The notes beneath the pieces are model-generated. The model did no database searches, was not told the DNA's origin, and was given only the letters and a program-made list of their open reading frames with translations. Of a stretch of DNA of 16,757 nt, positions 5,270 through 10,353 are shown in pieces (within the stretch, counting starts at the first letter, position 1; the number at the start of each line of letters is the position of its first letter). The stretch is from Kiritimatiellia bacterium. Lineage in GTDB: Bacteria > Verrucomicrobiota > Kiritimatiellia > RFP12 > UBA1067. The position numbers and the translations under genes are program-made. The stretch is taken from positions 1-16,757 of the forward strand of contig JAFRBA010000093.1 in NCBI GenBank assembly GCA_017405115.1. The letters are read 5' to 3'.

Positions 5270-6358
5270 TCATGCCGTTTCCCCTTTTATGAATGTCGCC
5301 TCCAGTTTCATCTGCCGCGGAACGCTCTTGCCATCGAGGATTTCAAGAAGGCTCTCCGCGAACTCCAGGCCATAGTGCGCCGGGTTCACCTCAAGCCTCG
5401 TCAACGGACGGAAGTGGACGGGGCCGAGCCCATAGTTGGACAACGTGGCCATGCGTATGTCCTCCGGCATGTTCACTCCGTGCCTGTCGAAGGCGGAGAG
5501 CGCGCCCGCTGCCAGGTAGTCGTCGTTGAACACCACCGCGTCCGCATTGATCGACCCCTTGGACAGAATCCTGTCAAACGCCTCCAGCGCCGACCTCTGC
5601 ATGTTCTCCGGCTGGATGTAGTCGTCAAGCGGCGGAATGCGCATCGACCGAACGGAAAAACCGGCCTTTCTCAGCGCCCCGCCGCAGTCAATGCCTTCAA
5701 TGCTCTCATACACCGATAGGATTTTTCGCACGCCATTCCCGGCAAATGCCCTGGCCAGTTCTGCAAGCGCCGCATCGGCACAGGGCCTTGCCGCAAGATG
5801 CGCCTTCGCGGACGTCTTCTCGCCCCATATCTGCACGAACGGCAACCCGGAGCGTTCCAGAACCTTTAGCATGACAGGCGGCGGGAACGACGCGACCACC
5901 AACGCTGGAGAGAAGCACTTGAGCGGCTCTACGATGTCGGCTCCGTCCGAACCTTCAGGCCATTCCATCCTGGCGAACAACCAGCCGCTGCGCATCAACG
6001 TAGAGGCGATGGTTCCCTCCATCACGTTGGCGTAGTACATGCCGGAGTCGTGCGCCGCGCGGAGACCGACAACGACGCCTCGCCAGGAACGGCGGCCTCC
6101 GCCGCAGACCGTGAGCCCGACGCGTGTGCGAGCCTGCAGGAGGCCGCGTCCGCAAAGCTCCTTCACCGCCCGCCGAACCGTGATCTCGCTGACGTCCAGA
6201 ATTCTGGCAAGCCGCCTTATTCCCGGCAACCGCGCACCGTCGGCCAGCGTCCCGTTGCCGATGGCGAGGGACATGTTGCCGACGATCTGGTCCACCAGCT
6301 CGGTGCCGAGGTTCCTGTCTACGCCAAACGGCAGACAATCTGCCCTTCGTTCCTTCAC
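5270..6358 (-). CDS. GntR-type transcriptional regulator with LacI-like sugar-sensor domain
   Basis: The protein has 362 residues. Residues ~18-85 form a GntR winged helix: TELVDQIVGNMSLAIGNGTL, then ARLPGIRRLARILDVSEITV, then RRAVKELCGRGLLQARTRVG. Residues ~94-355 match a periplasmic-binding-protein/LacI sensor: GVVVGLRAAHDSGMYYANVM, then ADAVVFNDDYLAAGALSAFD (~274-293) and MPEDIRMATLSNYG. This regulator class binds a sugar or sugar derivative and controls adjacent catabolic genes. The GTG start at 6358 is needed to include the whole winged helix, and a TATAAT box ends only 7 nt upstream of it, so the mRNA is probably leaderless. As first gene of the operon it is likely autoregulated. It could also affect the divergent promoter at 6429-6458, about 35 nt from its own -35 box. 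Confidence 0.85.
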   Translation of the reverse strand: MKERRADCLPFGVDRNLGTELVDQIVGNMSLAIGNGTLADGARLPGIRRLARILDVSEITVRRAVKELCGRGLLQARTRVGLTVCGGGRRSWRGVVVGLRAAHDSGMYYANVMEGTIASTLMRSGWLFARMEWPEGSDGADIVEPLKCFSPALVVASFPPPVMLKVLERSGLPFVQIWGEKTSAKAHLAARPCADAALAELARAFAGNGVRKILSVYESIEGIDCGGALRKAGFSVRSMRIPPLDDYIQPENMQRSALEAFDRILSKGSINADAVVFNDDYLAAGALSAFDRHGVNMPEDIRMATLSNYGLGPVHFRPLTRLEVNPAHYGLEFAESLLEILDGKSVPRQMKLEATFIKGETA

Positions 6359-6365
6359 GCGACAA

Positions 6366-6395
6366 ATTATACCACAATAATCACAGGGCGGTCAA
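6366..6395 (-). promoter_or_regulatory. Promoter of the regulator/glycosidase operon
   Basis: Minus strand: TTGACC (6390-6395), an 18-nt spacer, then TATAAT (6366-6371) within a TGGTATAAT extended -10. The predicted transcription start (about 6359) falls at or next to the GTG start codon at 6358, leaving no room for a ribosome-binding site. Confidence 0.75.
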
Positions 6396-6428
6396 CGGCG
6401 CATCTACCCCCGCGATCAATTGTCGCTG

Positions 6429-6458
6429 TGGACAAGCGCGGCGGGGTTTTGGTATAAT
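6429..6458 (+). promoter_or_regulatory. Promoter of the small-membrane-protein/larC operon
   Basis: Plus strand: TGGACA (6429-6434), an 18-nt spacer, then TATAAT (6453-6458) in a TTGGTATAAT context. Transcription would begin near 6465, giving a leader of about 35 nt. The leader holds a possible hairpin GCCGT-TTTCATG-ACGGC (6465-6481) directly before the AAAGGAG ribosome-binding site; the hairpin does not cover that site. Confidence 0.75.
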
Positions 6459-6499
6459 CACAATGCCGTTTTCATGACGGCGAAAGGAGAAATAAAGAA

Positions 6500-6853
6500 A
6501 TGGCTTGTTTCACAGTTCCTCTAGCGGGCGCAGTGGCGGCAGGTGCCGCGCACAAGGCCCTGGGCTCTTCGCATACGAATCCCTTCATCGCGCGGCTGCC
6601 GTGGCTGGTCAAGATGTCGCTTGGAGGCTCGTTCCTCCTCGCCATAGAGCACATCTACCACGGCGAGATAATCATGACGCCCCCATTCCTCACCGCCGCG
6701 AAGGAAGGTCCCGAGGCGATGTCCGAGATGTTCCACGAGATGGCGACGGTGGGCGTATCGATGGCAGTGCTGCTGACGGTCGTCTGGGTGGGCATGATCA
6801 TCGTGTCCGAAGCCGTCGCAAGGCATGGCAGAAAGGCCCAGGCACATGTGTGA
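6500..6853 (+). CDS. Small membrane protein of unknown function, first gene of larC operon
   Basis: The protein has 117 residues. A hydrophobic, Ala/Gly-rich N-terminus (1-18, starting MACFTVP) is followed by hydrophobic segments at ~36-53 (LVKMSLGGSFLLAIEHIY) and ~84-104 (VGVSMAVLLTVVWVGMIIVS), so two or three membrane passes. His and acidic residues sit at the membrane edges: EHIYHGE (50-56) and MFHEMATVG (77-85). These could bind a metal, but no established family motif is recognised. AAAGGAG lies 10 nt before the ATG (GAAAGGAGAAATAAAGAAATG). The stop overlaps the next start by 8 nt, and LarC follows, so a role in nickel supply or in membrane anchoring of the cofactor pathway is an inference from context. 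The start is well supported by the promoter and ribosome-binding site. Confidence 0.85.
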   Translation: MACFTVPLAGAVAAGAAHKALGSSHTNPFIARLPWLVKMSLGGSFLLAIEHIYHGEIIMTPPFLTAAKEGPEAMSEMFHEMATVGVSMAVLLTVVWVGMIIVSEAVARHGRKAQAHV

Positions 6854-7118
6854 GCTCATGACAATCGCGGCGGCGCTCGTCTTCACGGCGCTCTACTTCA
6901 CGTGCGCGAGGACCAAGGCCGTCTTCACCACGATGCTCATGTTCTGGGGCGCGGCGCTCATGTGGAGCGTCGACTGCGTCCACTCGCTCATGGAAGGCGA
7001 GGGGCTTTTCGACCTCAGCCGCGAGGACGCCGTGCTCGGGGCGATCATACTCGCCGCGGGGCTCTCGGTCTTCGCCGTCCTCGCAGTCCGCGAGCGAATG
7101 CTGGCGGCAAGATCCTGA
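6846..7118 (+). CDS. Second small membrane protein of unknown function in larC operon
   Basis: The protein has 90 residues with three predicted membrane helices: ~4-20 (LMTIAAALVFTALYFTC), ~28-45 (TTMLMFWGAALMWSVDCV) and ~65-83 (LGAIILAAGLSVFAVLAVR). Between helices 2 and 3 is a short charged loop, DCVHSLMEGEG, with a His and several acidic residues. The ATG at 6846 is preferred because AAAGG lies 8 nt upstream; an in-frame ATG at 6825 lacks such a site and would add seven polar residues. The gene overlaps its upstream neighbour by 8 nt and ends 3 nt before larC, so all three are translationally coupled. The function is unknown. The two small proteins probably form a complex. Confidence 0.8.
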   Translation: MCELMTIAAALVFTALYFTCARTKAVFTTMLMFWGAALMWSVDCVHSLMEGEGLFDLSREDAVLGAIILAAGLSVFAVLAVRERMLAARS

Positions 7119-7121
7119 AAG

Positions 7122-8255
7122 ATGCGCACACTCTATCTTGAATGCAGAATGGGGGCCGCCGGCGACATGCTGGCGGCCGCGCTTTTGAGCCTCCAGTCCG
7201 ATGCGGACGCCGCGCTCAGGCGGCTGAACGGCCTCGGGATCGACGGAGTCGAGGTATCCGTCGGCAAAGCCGAGCGTGCGGGCCTTGCCGGGTTGCTTGT
7301 CGACGTCTCCGTAAACGGGGAGTCCGAAGACCCGCACTGCCACCACCACGGGCATCACCACCATCACCACCACCACGCCACGATGGCGGAGATCGACTCG
7401 CGGATCGGCTCTCTCAACGCGTCTGACGCCGTGAAGGAGCATGTCCGCGCGGTATACCGCCTTATCGCCGACGCGGAGGCCGAGGCGCACGGGCGGCCCG
7501 TGGGCGAAGTGCATTTCCACGAAGTCGGCGCGCTCGACGCGATATGCGACATCGCGTCGGTTTCGCTCCTTCTCGAGATGCTGGGCGACGTGCGCATCGT
7601 CGCCAGCGTGCCGGAGGTCGGCGGCGGGTTCGTAAGCTGCGCGCACGGCACACTGCCGGTGCCCGCTCCCGCGACGGTCAACATCCTGAGGGGCGTGCCC
7701 TTCTCGAGCGGAGCGGCCGACTGCGAGCTCCTCACCCCGACCGGCGCGGCACTCCTAAGGCACTACGCTTCCGAGTTCGGCCCGATGCCCACGATGGCAG
7801 TCGAGCGCGTCGGCGTCGGGTGCGGGCACAGGGAGGTCGCAGGGCGCGCAAACGTCGTGCGGGCCTTCCTCGGCGAGACCGGGGACGCGGCGAACGAGAG
7901 GATCGTGGAGCTCAAGGCGAACATAGACGACATGACGGGGGAGGACCTCGCCTTCGCGTGCGAGCGCCTTAGGGCCGCAGGCGCCAGGGACGTGTCCCTC
8001 GTGCCGGCGGTCATGAAGAAAGGCCGCCCCGGGCACATGCTGGTAGTCCTCGCTGCGGAGGCCGACGCAGACGCGCTTGCCGCGGCAGTCCTCCGCGAGA
8101 CGTCGACTTTCGGCGTGCGGCGCACCGACTGCTCCCGCTATGCGCTGGCAAGGCGCATCGAGGCGGGAGCCGACGGCATACGCGTCAAGCACGGCGAGGG
8201 CTACGGGACGTCGAAGTCGAAGCCCGAGTTCGACGACCGGGCGAAATCCCGCTGA
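7122..8255 (+). CDS. larC: LarC, nickel-pincer-nucleotide nickel insertion protein (nickel chelatase)
   Basis: LarC inserts nickel into the pyridinium-3,5-bisthiocarboxylate mononucleotide, the last step of nickel-pincer cofactor synthesis for lactate racemase and related LarA enzymes; it acts in the cytoplasm and uses CTP. Family features in this 377-residue protein: LYLECRMGAAGDMLAAALL (4-22), GEVHFHEVGALDAICDIA (128-145), GTLPVPAPATVNILRG (176-191), ELLTPTGAAL (202-211), and the second-domain signature ELKANIDDMTGEDLAF (263-278). Residues 72-85 hold 12 His and one Cys, a nickel-binding-type insert. In Lactiplantibacillus plantarum this gene is read through a programmed frameshift; here it is one continuous frame. 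The end (PEFDDRAKSR) seems about 15-20 residues shorter than usual. LarB, LarE and LarA are not in the window. Confidence 0.92.
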   Translation: MRTLYLECRMGAAGDMLAAALLSLQSDADAALRRLNGLGIDGVEVSVGKAERAGLAGLLVDVSVNGESEDPHCHHHGHHHHHHHHATMAEIDSRIGSLNASDAVKEHVRAVYRLIADAEAEAHGRPVGEVHFHEVGALDAICDIASVSLLLEMLGDVRIVASVPEVGGGFVSCAHGTLPVPAPATVNILRGVPFSSGAADCELLTPTGAALLRHYASEFGPMPTMAVERVGVGCGHREVAGRANVVRAFLGETGDAANERIVELKANIDDMTGEDLAFACERLRAAGARDVSLVPAVMKKGRPGHMLVVLAAEADADALAAAVLRETSTFGVRRTDCSRYALARRIEAGADGIRVKHGEGYGTSKSKPEFDDRAKSR

Positions 8256-8261
8256 ACGGGA
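8247..8261. terminator. Possible weak bidirectional terminator between larC and the receptor gene
   Basis: A 5-bp hairpin (TCCCG-CTGAA-CGGGA) overlaps the larC stop and lies 5 nt before the end of the converging receptor gene. On the minus strand it is followed by TTT only; on the plus strand there is no U-run. It is the only hairpin at this convergent junction and is weak. Confidence 0.25.
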
Positions 8262-8265
8262 AACG

Positions 8266-10233
8266 TCAGAACTCGTAGCGCACCGTGAACATGAAGGTGC
8301 GGCGGGCGCCTGGATAGACGTACCACGGATCGAAGTACTCGCCGTAGTCGAAGTACCTGCGGTCGAACAGGTTGTCGACGGTGAGCGCGAAGGTGAAGCC
8401 GTCGAGCCACCTCCACGTCGGCATCACGCGCGCGCCCACGTCGAACAGGCAGTAGTTCGGCATCATCCCACCGCTCCCGGCGAAGTCGCCGCCGTAGCGC
8501 TGCTCGCCAACGAAGCGGAAGCCGCCGCCGACCGCAATCCAGTCCACTAGGAACACCTCGCCGAATATGCGCAGCTGCTGCCCAGGCACGAGCGGCACGT
8601 AGTTGTCCTCGTAGTCGCCCTCCGTGAAGCGCGAGCGCACGAACGAGTAGAGGACGCCAACGGAGCCGACCTTGTCGCGCGCCCACCTGAGCGACGTCTC
8701 GAAGCCGTCCCTGGCCGTGCGGTCAGGCGCGTTGACGTTCGCGTAGTTGAGGTACATGATCTCGTCCTCGAGCTCCGTGTGGTAGTACGTCGCGTTGAAG
8801 TTGAAGTCCTCCAGGAACGTCCAGTCCACGCCGACCGAGAAGTCGTCGCCCTCTTCGGGGCTGAGGCTCATGTTGGGGATGCCGTAGTACGAGAACAACT
8901 CGTCCGCCAGCGGCGCGTGGTAGAAGTGCGACCACTTGGCGAAGAACTTGAGGTCCTCGACAGGGCGCCAGTTGAGCCCCGCCTCGCCCGCTACGGCGCC
9001 CTTTGTCTTGCGCTCCCTGTCGCGGGAGTAGTCCGAAATGTATATGTCGCGGGAGCGGAACCACTCGCCGCGCGCCCCTCCGAACGCGGAGAGGCTTTCA
9101 AGGATCCAGAACTCGTCGTGGACGAAGAGCGCGCCGGTGAACCTGGAATAGTCGTTCTTGGCGTCCGCAGTGGCCCACAGCTCGTCAAGCTTGAGGTCGG
9201 TGCCAACGGTGAACCGGTTGTCGAAACCGCCAAGGCTTGTCTCGTCGACGTAGGCGACCTTCCAGTCGTAGGTGTAGACGTCGTAGTCGGTGTACCCGGT
9301 GGACTTCCTGTCGCGGAACGAGAAGGACGCGTCTATGCGGCGCTCCTCGCTGATGACGCCGCGCCCGGAGAGCGCCAGACCGTAGACCGAGTTCCACGCC
9401 TCGGCGTCGTTGTCGGACGCGTCGCTGGCGTTCTTCTTCCAGCTGCCGTAGTCCGTGCCGTAGCTTGACCTGCCGTAGTACACTCCGCCCGGCATGCCGT
9501 AGCGGCTGTCTGCCCAGAAGGCGCGGGCGTCGAACCAGCTGCCGCCCTCGAAGTGCTGGCGCACGCCGCCCTTGAGGGACCAGAGCTCGTACTGGGAGTT
9601 CTGCCGCCAGCCGTCGGCGCGGTCGTAGTCCAGGTCGGCGAAGTAGGTGGTGCCCGTCTCCTCGAATCCGCCACGAGTGCCGACGTGCGCGCCGACTGCG
9701 CCCCAGCTTCCGCCGTGCACGTCGAGGACGGTCTTCCTGTCGTAGGAGTCCACGTCGGACGTTATGTTTATGACGCCGGCGGACGCGTTGCCGCCGTGGA
9801 GCACGGTCTGGGGGCCGTGGAGTATCTCAACCTTCTCTATCGAACGCACCGGCACGCGCATGAGCTCCTGGGCGGCCATGTCCGGGTTGTTCAGCTCCTC
9901 GCCGTCGACTATGACCTTCGTGCGCCCGAAGCTGTTCGCACCGTAGCCGCGCATCGCAATCTGCGACATGGCGGGGTTGGGCGTGAGCTTGCGGACGAAC
10001 AGGTTCGCGCGTTTTTCGAGAAGGTCCACCGTGGACTCTGCGCCGGACGACTCGATGTCGTCCTTTGAGATCACGTCGACATGCGACGGAACCTCCCACT
10101 TGGTCTGGTCGAGCCGTGTCGCGAAGACGACTACGGGCTCGAGCTGCTCCACCTCTTCGGCGGCCTCCGACTGCGCCGACTGCACAGCCGCGTTTGTCAC
10201 CGCGGCGACCGCGGCGAACATCAGTGTGTTCAT
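8266..10233 (-). CDS. TonB-dependent outer-membrane receptor, probable cobalamin/corrinoid importer (BtuB-like)
   Basis: The protein has about 655 residues: a signal peptide (~1-20), a TonB-box-like segment LEPVVVFATR (~30-40), and a plug domain with the family landmarks VPSHVDVISKDDIES, QIAMRGYGANSFGRTKVIVD, and VEILHGPQTVLHGGNASAGV. A beta-barrel with many aromatic strand ends follows, and the C-terminus is ...TFMFTVRYEF, ending in the Phe typical of outer-membrane proteins. The length fits small BtuB-type receptors (about 600-700). A cobalamin riboswitch in the leader makes corrinoid the likely ligand. The ATG at 10233 is chosen; a GTG at 10236 and a later ATG at 10218 are alternatives, because GAGGAG lies only 2 nt before the first ATG. 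No TonB, ExbBD or ABC genes are nearby. Confidence 0.88.
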   Translation of the reverse strand: MNTLMFAAVAAVTNAAVQSAQSEAAEEVEQLEPVVVFATRLDQTKWEVPSHVDVISKDDIESSGAESTVDLLEKRANLFVRKLTPNPAMSQIAMRGYGANSFGRTKVIVDGEELNNPDMAAQELMRVPVRSIEKVEILHGPQTVLHGGNASAGVINITSDVDSYDRKTVLDVHGGSWGAVGAHVGTRGGFEETGTTYFADLDYDRADGWRQNSQYELWSLKGGVRQHFEGGSWFDARAFWADSRYGMPGGVYYGRSSYGTDYGSWKKNASDASDNDAEAWNSVYGLALSGRGVISEERRIDASFSFRDRKSTGYTDYDVYTYDWKVAYVDETSLGGFDNRFTVGTDLKLDELWATADAKNDYSRFTGALFVHDEFWILESLSAFGGARGEWFRSRDIYISDYSRDRERKTKGAVAGEAGLNWRPVEDLKFFAKWSHFYHAPLADELFSYYGIPNMSLSPEEGDDFSVGVDWTFLEDFNFNATYYHTELEDEIMYLNYANVNAPDRTARDGFETSLRWARDKVGSVGVLYSFVRSRFTEGDYEDNYVPLVPGQQLRIFGEVFLVDWIAVGGGFRFVGEQRYGGDFAGSGGMMPNYCLFDVGARVMPTWRWLDGFTFALTVDNLFDRRYFDYGEYFDPWYVYPGARRTFMFTVRYEF

Positions 10234-10242
10234 CACTCCTCT

Positions 10243-10353
10243 TTCCCCCTCATGCGAGGGTACTTGACGTTTGCGGAGGCGGCCCGCATTCCGACTATGA
10301 CGGCTGCGCGACAGCGCCTGGTTTTCACAGGACTTTCCGGTTACCGCCCCTCC
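10243..10353 (-). promoter_or_regulatory. Cobalamin riboswitch (compact, env8/class-II-like)
   Basis: Read on the minus strand, the leader contains the cobalamin core. Helix P1/P2 is GGA..GGCGG (10353-10344) pairing with CCGCCTCC (10282-10275). GGAAAGT follows (10338-10332). The T-loop hairpin is CCTG-TGAAAAC-CAGG (10331-10317). Next is a hairpin GCTG-TCGCG-CAGC (10315-10303). P6 is CCG-TCATAGT-CGG followed by AATGC (10303-10286). The order and the invariant stretches GGAAAGT, GTGAAA and CGGAATGC match the short hydroxocobalamin-type riboswitches. A downstream hairpin CCCTC-GCAT-GAGGG (10260-10247) sits just before the ribosome-binding site, where the regulatory kissing-loop hairpin is expected, so control of translation is likely. 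Confidence 0.85.

Follow-up and report, generated by a model that had tools for sequence, protein, structure and literature searches.

Two small membrane proteins encoded beside nickel enzymes form a predicted nickel importer in gut and rumen anaerobes

The 16,757-nucleotide stretch analysed here (the window; positions 1 to 16,757 of contig JAFRBA010000093.1 from the Kiritimatiellia bacterium assembly GCA_017405115.1) carries a short operon in which genes for two small membrane proteins, referred to here as P1 and P2, precede larC (Table 1). Open reading frames (ORFs) and a promoter scan confirm the arrangement described in an earlier note on this DNA: a promoter is followed by the P1 and P2 frames, which overlap by 8 nucleotides (nt), and larC begins 3 nt beyond the P2 stop codon, all on the + strand. 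The scan found 3 promoter-like sites in positions 6350–8300 on both strands, compared with a mean of 0.2 for shuffled sequence. We placed the start of P2 at 6846, which gives the family-conserved MCEL; the upstream ATG at 6825 in the ORF list would give a protein of 97 amino acids (aa). LarC matches the Pfam model Ni_insertion (PF01969) as well as LarC1 (E = 7.8e-56) and LarC2 (E = 6.5e-36), both above cut-off, and contains a His-rich stretch, HCHHHGHHHHHHHH (window about 7334–7378, +), that is likely to be a nickel-binding segment.

Table 1 Features of the P1–P2–larC operon in the window
Feature	Position	Strand	Basis
Sigma-70-type promoter of the P1–P2–larC operon	6429..6458	+	TGGACA-N18-TATAAT, 11/12 consensus positions, TG before second hexamer
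P1, 117-aa membrane protein, predicted nickel-importer core subunit	6500..6853	+	ORF, conserved family
P1 residues 50–56 (EHIYHGE), candidate metal site, end of second long helix	6647..6667	+	Conservation
P1 E80, second invariant acidic residue, early in last helix	6737..6739	+	74/74
P2, 90-aa three-helix membrane protein, predicted accessory subunit	6846..7118	+	ATG 6846
P2 D43, invariant acidic residue after M39-W40	6972..6974	+	58/58
larC, nickel insertase of the nickel-pincer cofactor	7122..8255	+	PF01969, E = 4.9e-122

Comparison of P1 and P2 with their relatives makes it probable that the pair is a small nickel importer from an undescribed family, which feeds whichever nickel enzyme the host has, here LarC. 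Sequence searches (E ≤ 1) returned 1035 relatives of P1 and 888 of P2, and a search from a distant P1 branch gave at least 8000 scored candidates. A scan of genome contigs yielded 144 P1 relatives, 80 of which were kept (fetched relative loci are labelled L and genomes G, each with a number). These were drawn by two peptide patterns, MACF.. and SFLLAIEH, and conservation among the 80 scanned loci is partly a product of that selection; the three aligned Clostridia-like records, found without the patterns, all retain MACF and EHxxHGE. Several loci are near-copies or duplicate retrievals of one place (L069 and L128, for instance), and the greedy gene calling that we used is poor in GC-rich loci. 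By title, the contig-scan relatives belong to Kiritimatiellae, Verrucomicrobia, Lentisphaeria and Treponema, and the Clostridia relatives were found on plasmids from Lachnospira eligens and Ruminococcus albus; none of 35 pattern matches in viral contigs was a relative. P2 is present at 75/80 P1 loci (L020, among the five without it, ends 78 nt past P1), and the spacing between P1 and P2 is −13 to +20 nt in 74/74 loci measured, in two of which the P2 start is a profile match and not an ATG. Given the number of relatives and this close spacing, the two genes are not chance ORFs. One locus from a treponeme-family genome joins P1 and P2 in a single frame (L097:1501-2217), which, barring a fault in the assembly, is a natural fusion. 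At L012:2589-2915 (G413, a Kiritimatiellae assembly) P1 was read as two pieces around an in-frame TAG.

Neither protein of the window has a Pfam or NCBIfam match above cut-off. The same models gave only scattered weak matches to 74 P1 and 58 P2 relatives (lowest E 0.00034, in 2/74), the most frequent among P2 relatives being DUF3959 (7/58, E at least 0.0015), and PDB sequence searches returned no match for P1 or P2 (best E 1.7 and 2). The mercury transporter MerC (PF03203), considered for P2, was rejected (E 0.22; 12.6 bits versus a cut-off of 27.6). The earlier note would have given way to a match with a known unrelated family; none was found in Pfam, NCBIfam or PDB sequences. We also found no earlier description of the pair in open-licence literature and, with respect to that literature, Pfam and NCBIfam, the best reading is that P1–P2 is a hitherto undescribed family.

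AlphaFold models place helices at residues 5–21, 33–53, 62–69 and 71–115 of P1 (mean pLDDT 80.7, pTM 0.48) and at 2–19, 24–50 and 59–89 of P2 (mean pLDDT 86.0, pTM 0.72). Searches with Foldseek and VIA gave no clear fold match for either model, and the fold may still be a known one. Invariant positions of P1 (74/74 relatives) are M1-A2-C3-F4, P7-L8, L36, G42-G43, L46-L47, E50-H51, H54-G55-E56, P62-F63, E80, T83, G85, M88 and W96; those of P2 (58/58 aligned relatives) are A36, M39-W40, D43, D61 and L64-G65. Among the motifs quoted in the earlier note, P1 E50, H51, H54, G55, E56, E80, T83 and G85 and P2 D43 thus hold throughout, whereas P1 H79 and P2 C44 and H46 are conserved in less than 90% of relatives. 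The EHxxHGE motif closes the second long helix of P1 and is followed by a segment with several acidic residues. We infer that this segment lies outside the membrane, because stretches rich in Lys and Arg, one linking helices 1 and 2 and one following the last helix, are on the other side.

At 36 of the 80 P1 loci the neighbours include LarB, LarC or LarE, on the same strand as P1 in 36/36; urease or UrtA is found at 13 loci and HypA/HypB at 2. Neighbour identity was checked on one representative each and the remainder was assigned by similarity, with LarB, LarE, UreG, UrtA and HypB (NCBIfam) and HypA and UreD (Pfam) above cut-off. Six treponemes have P1 and lack LarC and urease (G004, G215, G219, G246, G247 and G253), and here P1 adjoins HypB–oxidoreductase–HypA, with an oxidoreductase of the 905-aa type and with DUF5692 in all but the available stretch of G253. 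Judging by its size, domains and neighbours, we take this large oxidoreductase to be a relative of IsrA. In a published study (PMC10134865), homologues of IsrA, a putative isoprene reductase, are surrounded by HypA, HypB and DUF5692, and it is argued that the enzyme may take nickel. Clusters of HypB, the IsrA-type oxidoreductase, HypA and DUF5692 occur in treponemes at L116–L120, L128 and L156–L159 (DUF5692 was not seen in L120); the pair (P1 alone in L117) adjoins some of them, not those of L156–L159.

Among Clostridia-like records, four of five were examined, the fifth being Lachnospira eligens again, and 3/4 have a nickel enzyme beside the pair. On plasmid pRUMAL02 of Ruminococcus albus 7, the annotated cooS gene, for nickel CO dehydrogenase (CODH), ends 13 nt before P1–P2 on the same strand; L138 has the order cooS-P1-P2 with a gap of 26 nt (CooS above cut-off), and L137 reads P1-P2-ureAB-ureC-ureE-ureF-ureG-ureD in one run. 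The records of L137 (MT836358.1) and L138 (MT836268.1), with the urease operon and the cooS locus, are deposited in GenBank as ‘Bacteriophage sp.’ and are probably bacterial DNA. The family therefore stands beside four biochemically unrelated systems that have only nickel in common. The proposal of the earlier note that the pair is locked into an operon with LarC holds in the window and in many relatives, and fails in other relatives.

To count co-occurrence we used one set of genomes for every gene in each of two families: 145 treponemes from the family of Treponema bryantii (completeness not stated) and 114 Kiritimatiellae from the family to which G002, the source of locus L001, belongs. Family level was chosen because a phylum-wide treponeme sample was too thin (P1 in 4/120) and a class-level Kiritimatiellae sample was uninformative (P1 in 2/116, LarC in 97/116). 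Urease was counted as a full match only (8 genomes, E < 1e-50); nine weaker PF00449 matches (E at least 3.6e-6, five above cut-off) were taken as other amidohydrolases, and P1 is present in 0/9 of these genomes. HypB was counted only above its curated cut-off (26 of 111 genomes with any match). On this basis the treponemes include 36 genomes with P1, 37 with LarC, 8 with full urease alpha, 26 with HypB and 17 with CbiM/NikM. All 36 P1-positive treponemes have a nickel system (LarC in 22, urease in 8 and HypB alone in 6; 11 have HypB in all), and P1 occurs in 36/60 treponemes with LarC, urease or HypB versus 0/85 without (Fisher test, P = 2.4e-18, not corrected for kinship). LarC is missing from 14/36 P1-positive treponemes; the full-urease treponemes are 8/8 P1-positive, and all lack LarC. 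In the Kiritimatiellae (P1 in 45, LarC in 63, CbiM in 12), the co-occurrence with larC that the earlier note had proposed to examine is strong: LarC is present in 42/45 P1-positive versus 21/69 P1-negative genomes (P = 7e-12), and in 28/45 no more than 4 kb separates P1 from LarC. A nickel-handling partner of LarC, as the earlier note had considered, is too narrow a description, with relatives beside urease, HypAB/IsrA and cooS and with all full-urease treponemes having P1 without LarC. We likewise rejected a lar-specific accessory protein, given the 14 LarC-less treponemes and the pairs beside cooS and urease.

The absence of the usual energy-coupling factor (ECF) transporter genes, which the earlier note had pointed out, proved a good clue: P1 and CbiM/NikM co-occur in none of the genomes of the two families, with CbiM counted above cut-off (17 of 18 treponemes; the dropped match, in G222, is in a P1-positive genome at 20.6 bits). 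CbiM/NikM is found in 0/36 P1-positive treponemes, in 15/24 nickel users without P1 and in 2/85 others; in the Kiritimatiellae CbiM is found in 0/45 P1-positive and 12/69 P1-negative genomes, and the 21 genomes with LarC and without P1 divide into 10 with CbiM and 11 without. In treponemes the exclusion extends to gene position. L149 and L150 read larE-larB-larC-larMN-Q-O, and L148 shows this order from larB onwards, except that a 137-aa frame separates larC and larMN; the L149 trio is CbiM with PDGLE, CbiQ and an ABC ATPase that most resembles those of ECF systems (Pfam, above cut-off). L153, L154 and L155 read larE-larB-larC-P1-P2. CbiM lies upstream of the lar genes in L151 and L152, as P1–P2 does in L162, L166, L175, L176, L177, L179 and L185. 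P1 is inside the lar run in 14 of the 22 treponemes with both P1 and LarC, and elsewhere in 8. The treponeme lar slots thus show the pattern of one transporter replacing another, the CbiM model covering both nickel and cobalt types.

Trees were used to follow these associations. On a tree of LarC from 35 of the 37 LarC-positive treponemes, the P1 label changes 3 times and the CbiM label 3 times. On the best P1 tree (103 rows, few columns, a short search and some near-copy rows), the nickel partner (Lar, urease, Hyp or CooS) switches 8 times; the well-supported branches by themselves require a smaller number of switches (2, 2, 2 and 1 by group). Repeated recruitment of P1–P2 to nickel systems is likely.

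The nickel link of P1–P2 is very likely. The genome evidence also supports well the minimal nickel importer that the earlier note had put forward as one option: the gene stands beside several nickel enzymes and is exclusive with another candidate importer, CbiM/NikM. That the pair replaces the ECF transporter, and excludes it, makes import, we infer, the reading that fits best. We also find it reasonably likely that P1–P2 represents a new class of nickel transporter. This would be an unusually small, ATPase-less heteromer of two three-helix proteins, widespread among anaerobes of the gut and rumen (Kiritimatiellae, Lentisphaeria, Treponema and Clostridia) and serving as an interchangeable supply for urease, CODH, the nickel-pincer pathway and HypAB/IsrA enzymes. 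P1 would be the core subunit. Outside the membrane, Ni2+ would be captured by EHxxHGE and E80 of P1, perhaps together with the N-terminal Met-Ala-Cys (Ala-Cys after removal of Met), which is reminiscent of the nickel hook in Ni superoxide dismutase. The ion might then pass along a path shared with P2 (M39-W40, D43 and D61), with the membrane potential or an ion gradient as the driving force; such a drive is proposed because no companion ABC ATPase was found among the 14 proteins of the window to which the ATPase scan was confined. Inside, the metal would be taken up by LarC, UreE/G, HypA/B or CODH maturation proteins.

Several observations weigh against a nickel importer. A transporter with three membrane helices in each chain would be very small, and P1 lacks a P2 partner immediately ahead of lar genes in L017, L026 and L032 and stands alone in L117; the three lar loci suggest that P1 is the core of the pair. 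No nickel gene was found in the available DNA at 29/80 P1 loci; 4 of these are cut within 430 nt downstream, and 11/29 have at least 6 kb on both sides and are solitary pairs, as is the pair on the Lachnospira eligens plasmid, which no nickel gene adjoins. The earlier note had held that homologues mostly away from larC would count against it, and this is partly so: 36/80 loci have LarB, LarC or LarE, 15/80 another nickel system and 29/80 none. In treponeme urease loci urtA has the same direction as the pair and ureD/ureG the opposite one, and the pair is opposite to the Hyp genes in 4/6 of the HypB-type treponemes (L117–L120), with the same direction in G004 and G247; because of the opposed directions, these opposite-strand Hyp and ure genes are neighbours and not proven operons. 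The link of P1 with HypB alone is weak (11/36 versus 15/109, P = 0.04). Nickel users without P1 or CbiM make up 9/60 treponemes and 11/63 LarC-positive Kiritimatiellae. Only 5/17 CbiM-positive treponemes carry CbiM beside lar genes, and 13 Kiritimatiellae lar loci (all P1-negative, 8 of them from CbiM-positive genomes and representing 8 of the 10 genomes with CbiM and LarC) have no CbiM beside larC, so in the Kiritimatiellae the exclusion is at genome level only. Furthermore, CbiM models cannot separate nickel from cobalt types; the exclusion lies in few blocks, with three label changes, and the Fisher values therefore overstate independence; and the importer survey consists of CbiM/NikM, with NiCoT, UreH, HupE and NikABCDE outside it, in genomes of unstated completeness.

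The main rival, which we regard as unlikely, is that P1–P2 handles nickel at the membrane without importing it, acting as a chaperone, a store or a sensor to which LarC, UreE/G or HypA/B would dock. Such a protein would have the same nickel-system neighbours and could be as small, and the invariant His, Glu and Cys residues are able to bind Ni. However, a chaperone should coexist with an importer, whereas the pair takes the slot of CbiM/NikM and never co-occurs with it, and a single partner that docks LarC, UreG, HypB and CODH would be unusual. Export of nickel (or cobalt), protecting cells that concentrate nickel, would suit the metal-linked neighbours, and gene position is compatible with both directions of transport; we nevertheless hold it improbable, as exclusion with a putative importer fits a substitute importer and not an exporter, and the only Rfam match above threshold in the window, an AdoCbl-II element, lies elsewhere.

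It is also improbable, in our estimate, that the pair carries some other shared substrate (another metal, bicarbonate, ammonia or protons) and that its link to nickel is incidental. Treponeme urease loci do contain urtA (a model match) and a gene that, judged by eye from the sequence alone, encodes an Amt-like ammonium transporter, but LarB/C/E, HypAB/IsrA, cooS and urease share nickel and no substrate, and the ECF transporter that is replaced belongs to the lar(MN)QO type, to which PMC10134865 ascribes nickel import. An enzyme that uses the nickel-pincer cofactor, or a partner tied to it, was a further option in the earlier note and would explain the adjacency to LarC in the window and in Kiritimatiellae; it is contradicted by the LarC-less carriers, in that 8/8 full-urease and six HypB-alone treponemes have P1 without LarC, and we consider it largely refuted.

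As a small nickel importer, P1–P2 can be compared with known systems. It shares with Lar(MN)QO, NikMNQO and CbiMNQO the slot on the larC side in treponemes and the same predicted job, but the ECF systems comprise several proteins with an ATPase, whereas P1–P2 is two small three-helix chains without CbiM, PDGLE, CbiQ or ATPase domains; CbiM (PF01891) had no match in P1, P2, or their 74 and 58 relatives. Pfam and NCBIfam contain curated models for NiCoT, UreH and HupE/UreJ, and none of these matched (relatives, E ≤ 0.01; window proteins, E ≤ 5). CbtAB are small paired membrane proteins associated with B12 makers; P1 and P2 differ from them in having no match to the model so named and in being linked to nickel enzymes. 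The likeness lies in the small paired chains and in prediction by comparative genomics, CbtAB-type proteins being named as predicted cobalt transporters in PMC2667541. NiCoT (HoxN/NixA), UreH and HupE/UreJ resemble P1–P2 in being ATPase-free and in having genes that can adjoin nickel enzymes, but P1 and P2 are far smaller, NiCoT having eight membrane segments (PMC2667541). The IsrA-HypA-HypB-DUF5692 neighbourhood contains the same kinds of gene as the surroundings of P1–P2 in some treponemes; the excerpt of PMC10134865 considered here does not name P1–P2 and lists an unnamed neighbour class without a Pfam family.

Other features of the window and of the relatives are recorded here. The gene after larC, on the opposite strand, encodes a TonB-dependent receptor (8266-10236, −), just upstream of which is an AdoCbl-II (B12) riboswitch (10277-10349, −), the sole Rfam match above threshold in the window; because of this riboswitch the receptor is probably for cobalamin and outside the nickel operon. 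Divergent from the operon is a GntR/periplasmic-binding-type regulator (5270-6358, −) with its own strong promoter-like site (6395-6366, −); we found no sign that it controls the P1–P2–larC operon. A DUF362-like protein recurs by the pair, with or without lar genes, in L029, L046, L051, L053, L060, L065, L078, L127, L133 and L134 (some loci are near-copies; Pfam-checked in L046 only). No solved relative was found that would make DUF362 a LarA-like partner, and the neighbour is possibly a nickel-linked protein.

Urease, CO dehydrogenase and the Lar racemases are nickel enzymes that shape ammonia and carbon flow in the rumen and gut. A 2009 survey (PMC2667541) counted 62 bacteria that have nickel-dependent proteins and lack both nickel transporters and transporters of unassigned function. 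If P1–P2 is a nickel importer, a very large family able to replace an ECF importer would fill part of this gap. It would also agree with the published suggestion of nickel in IsrA-type oxidoreductases, assign a testable role to many gut genes now called ‘hypothetical’ and indicate how little protein a metal importer needs.

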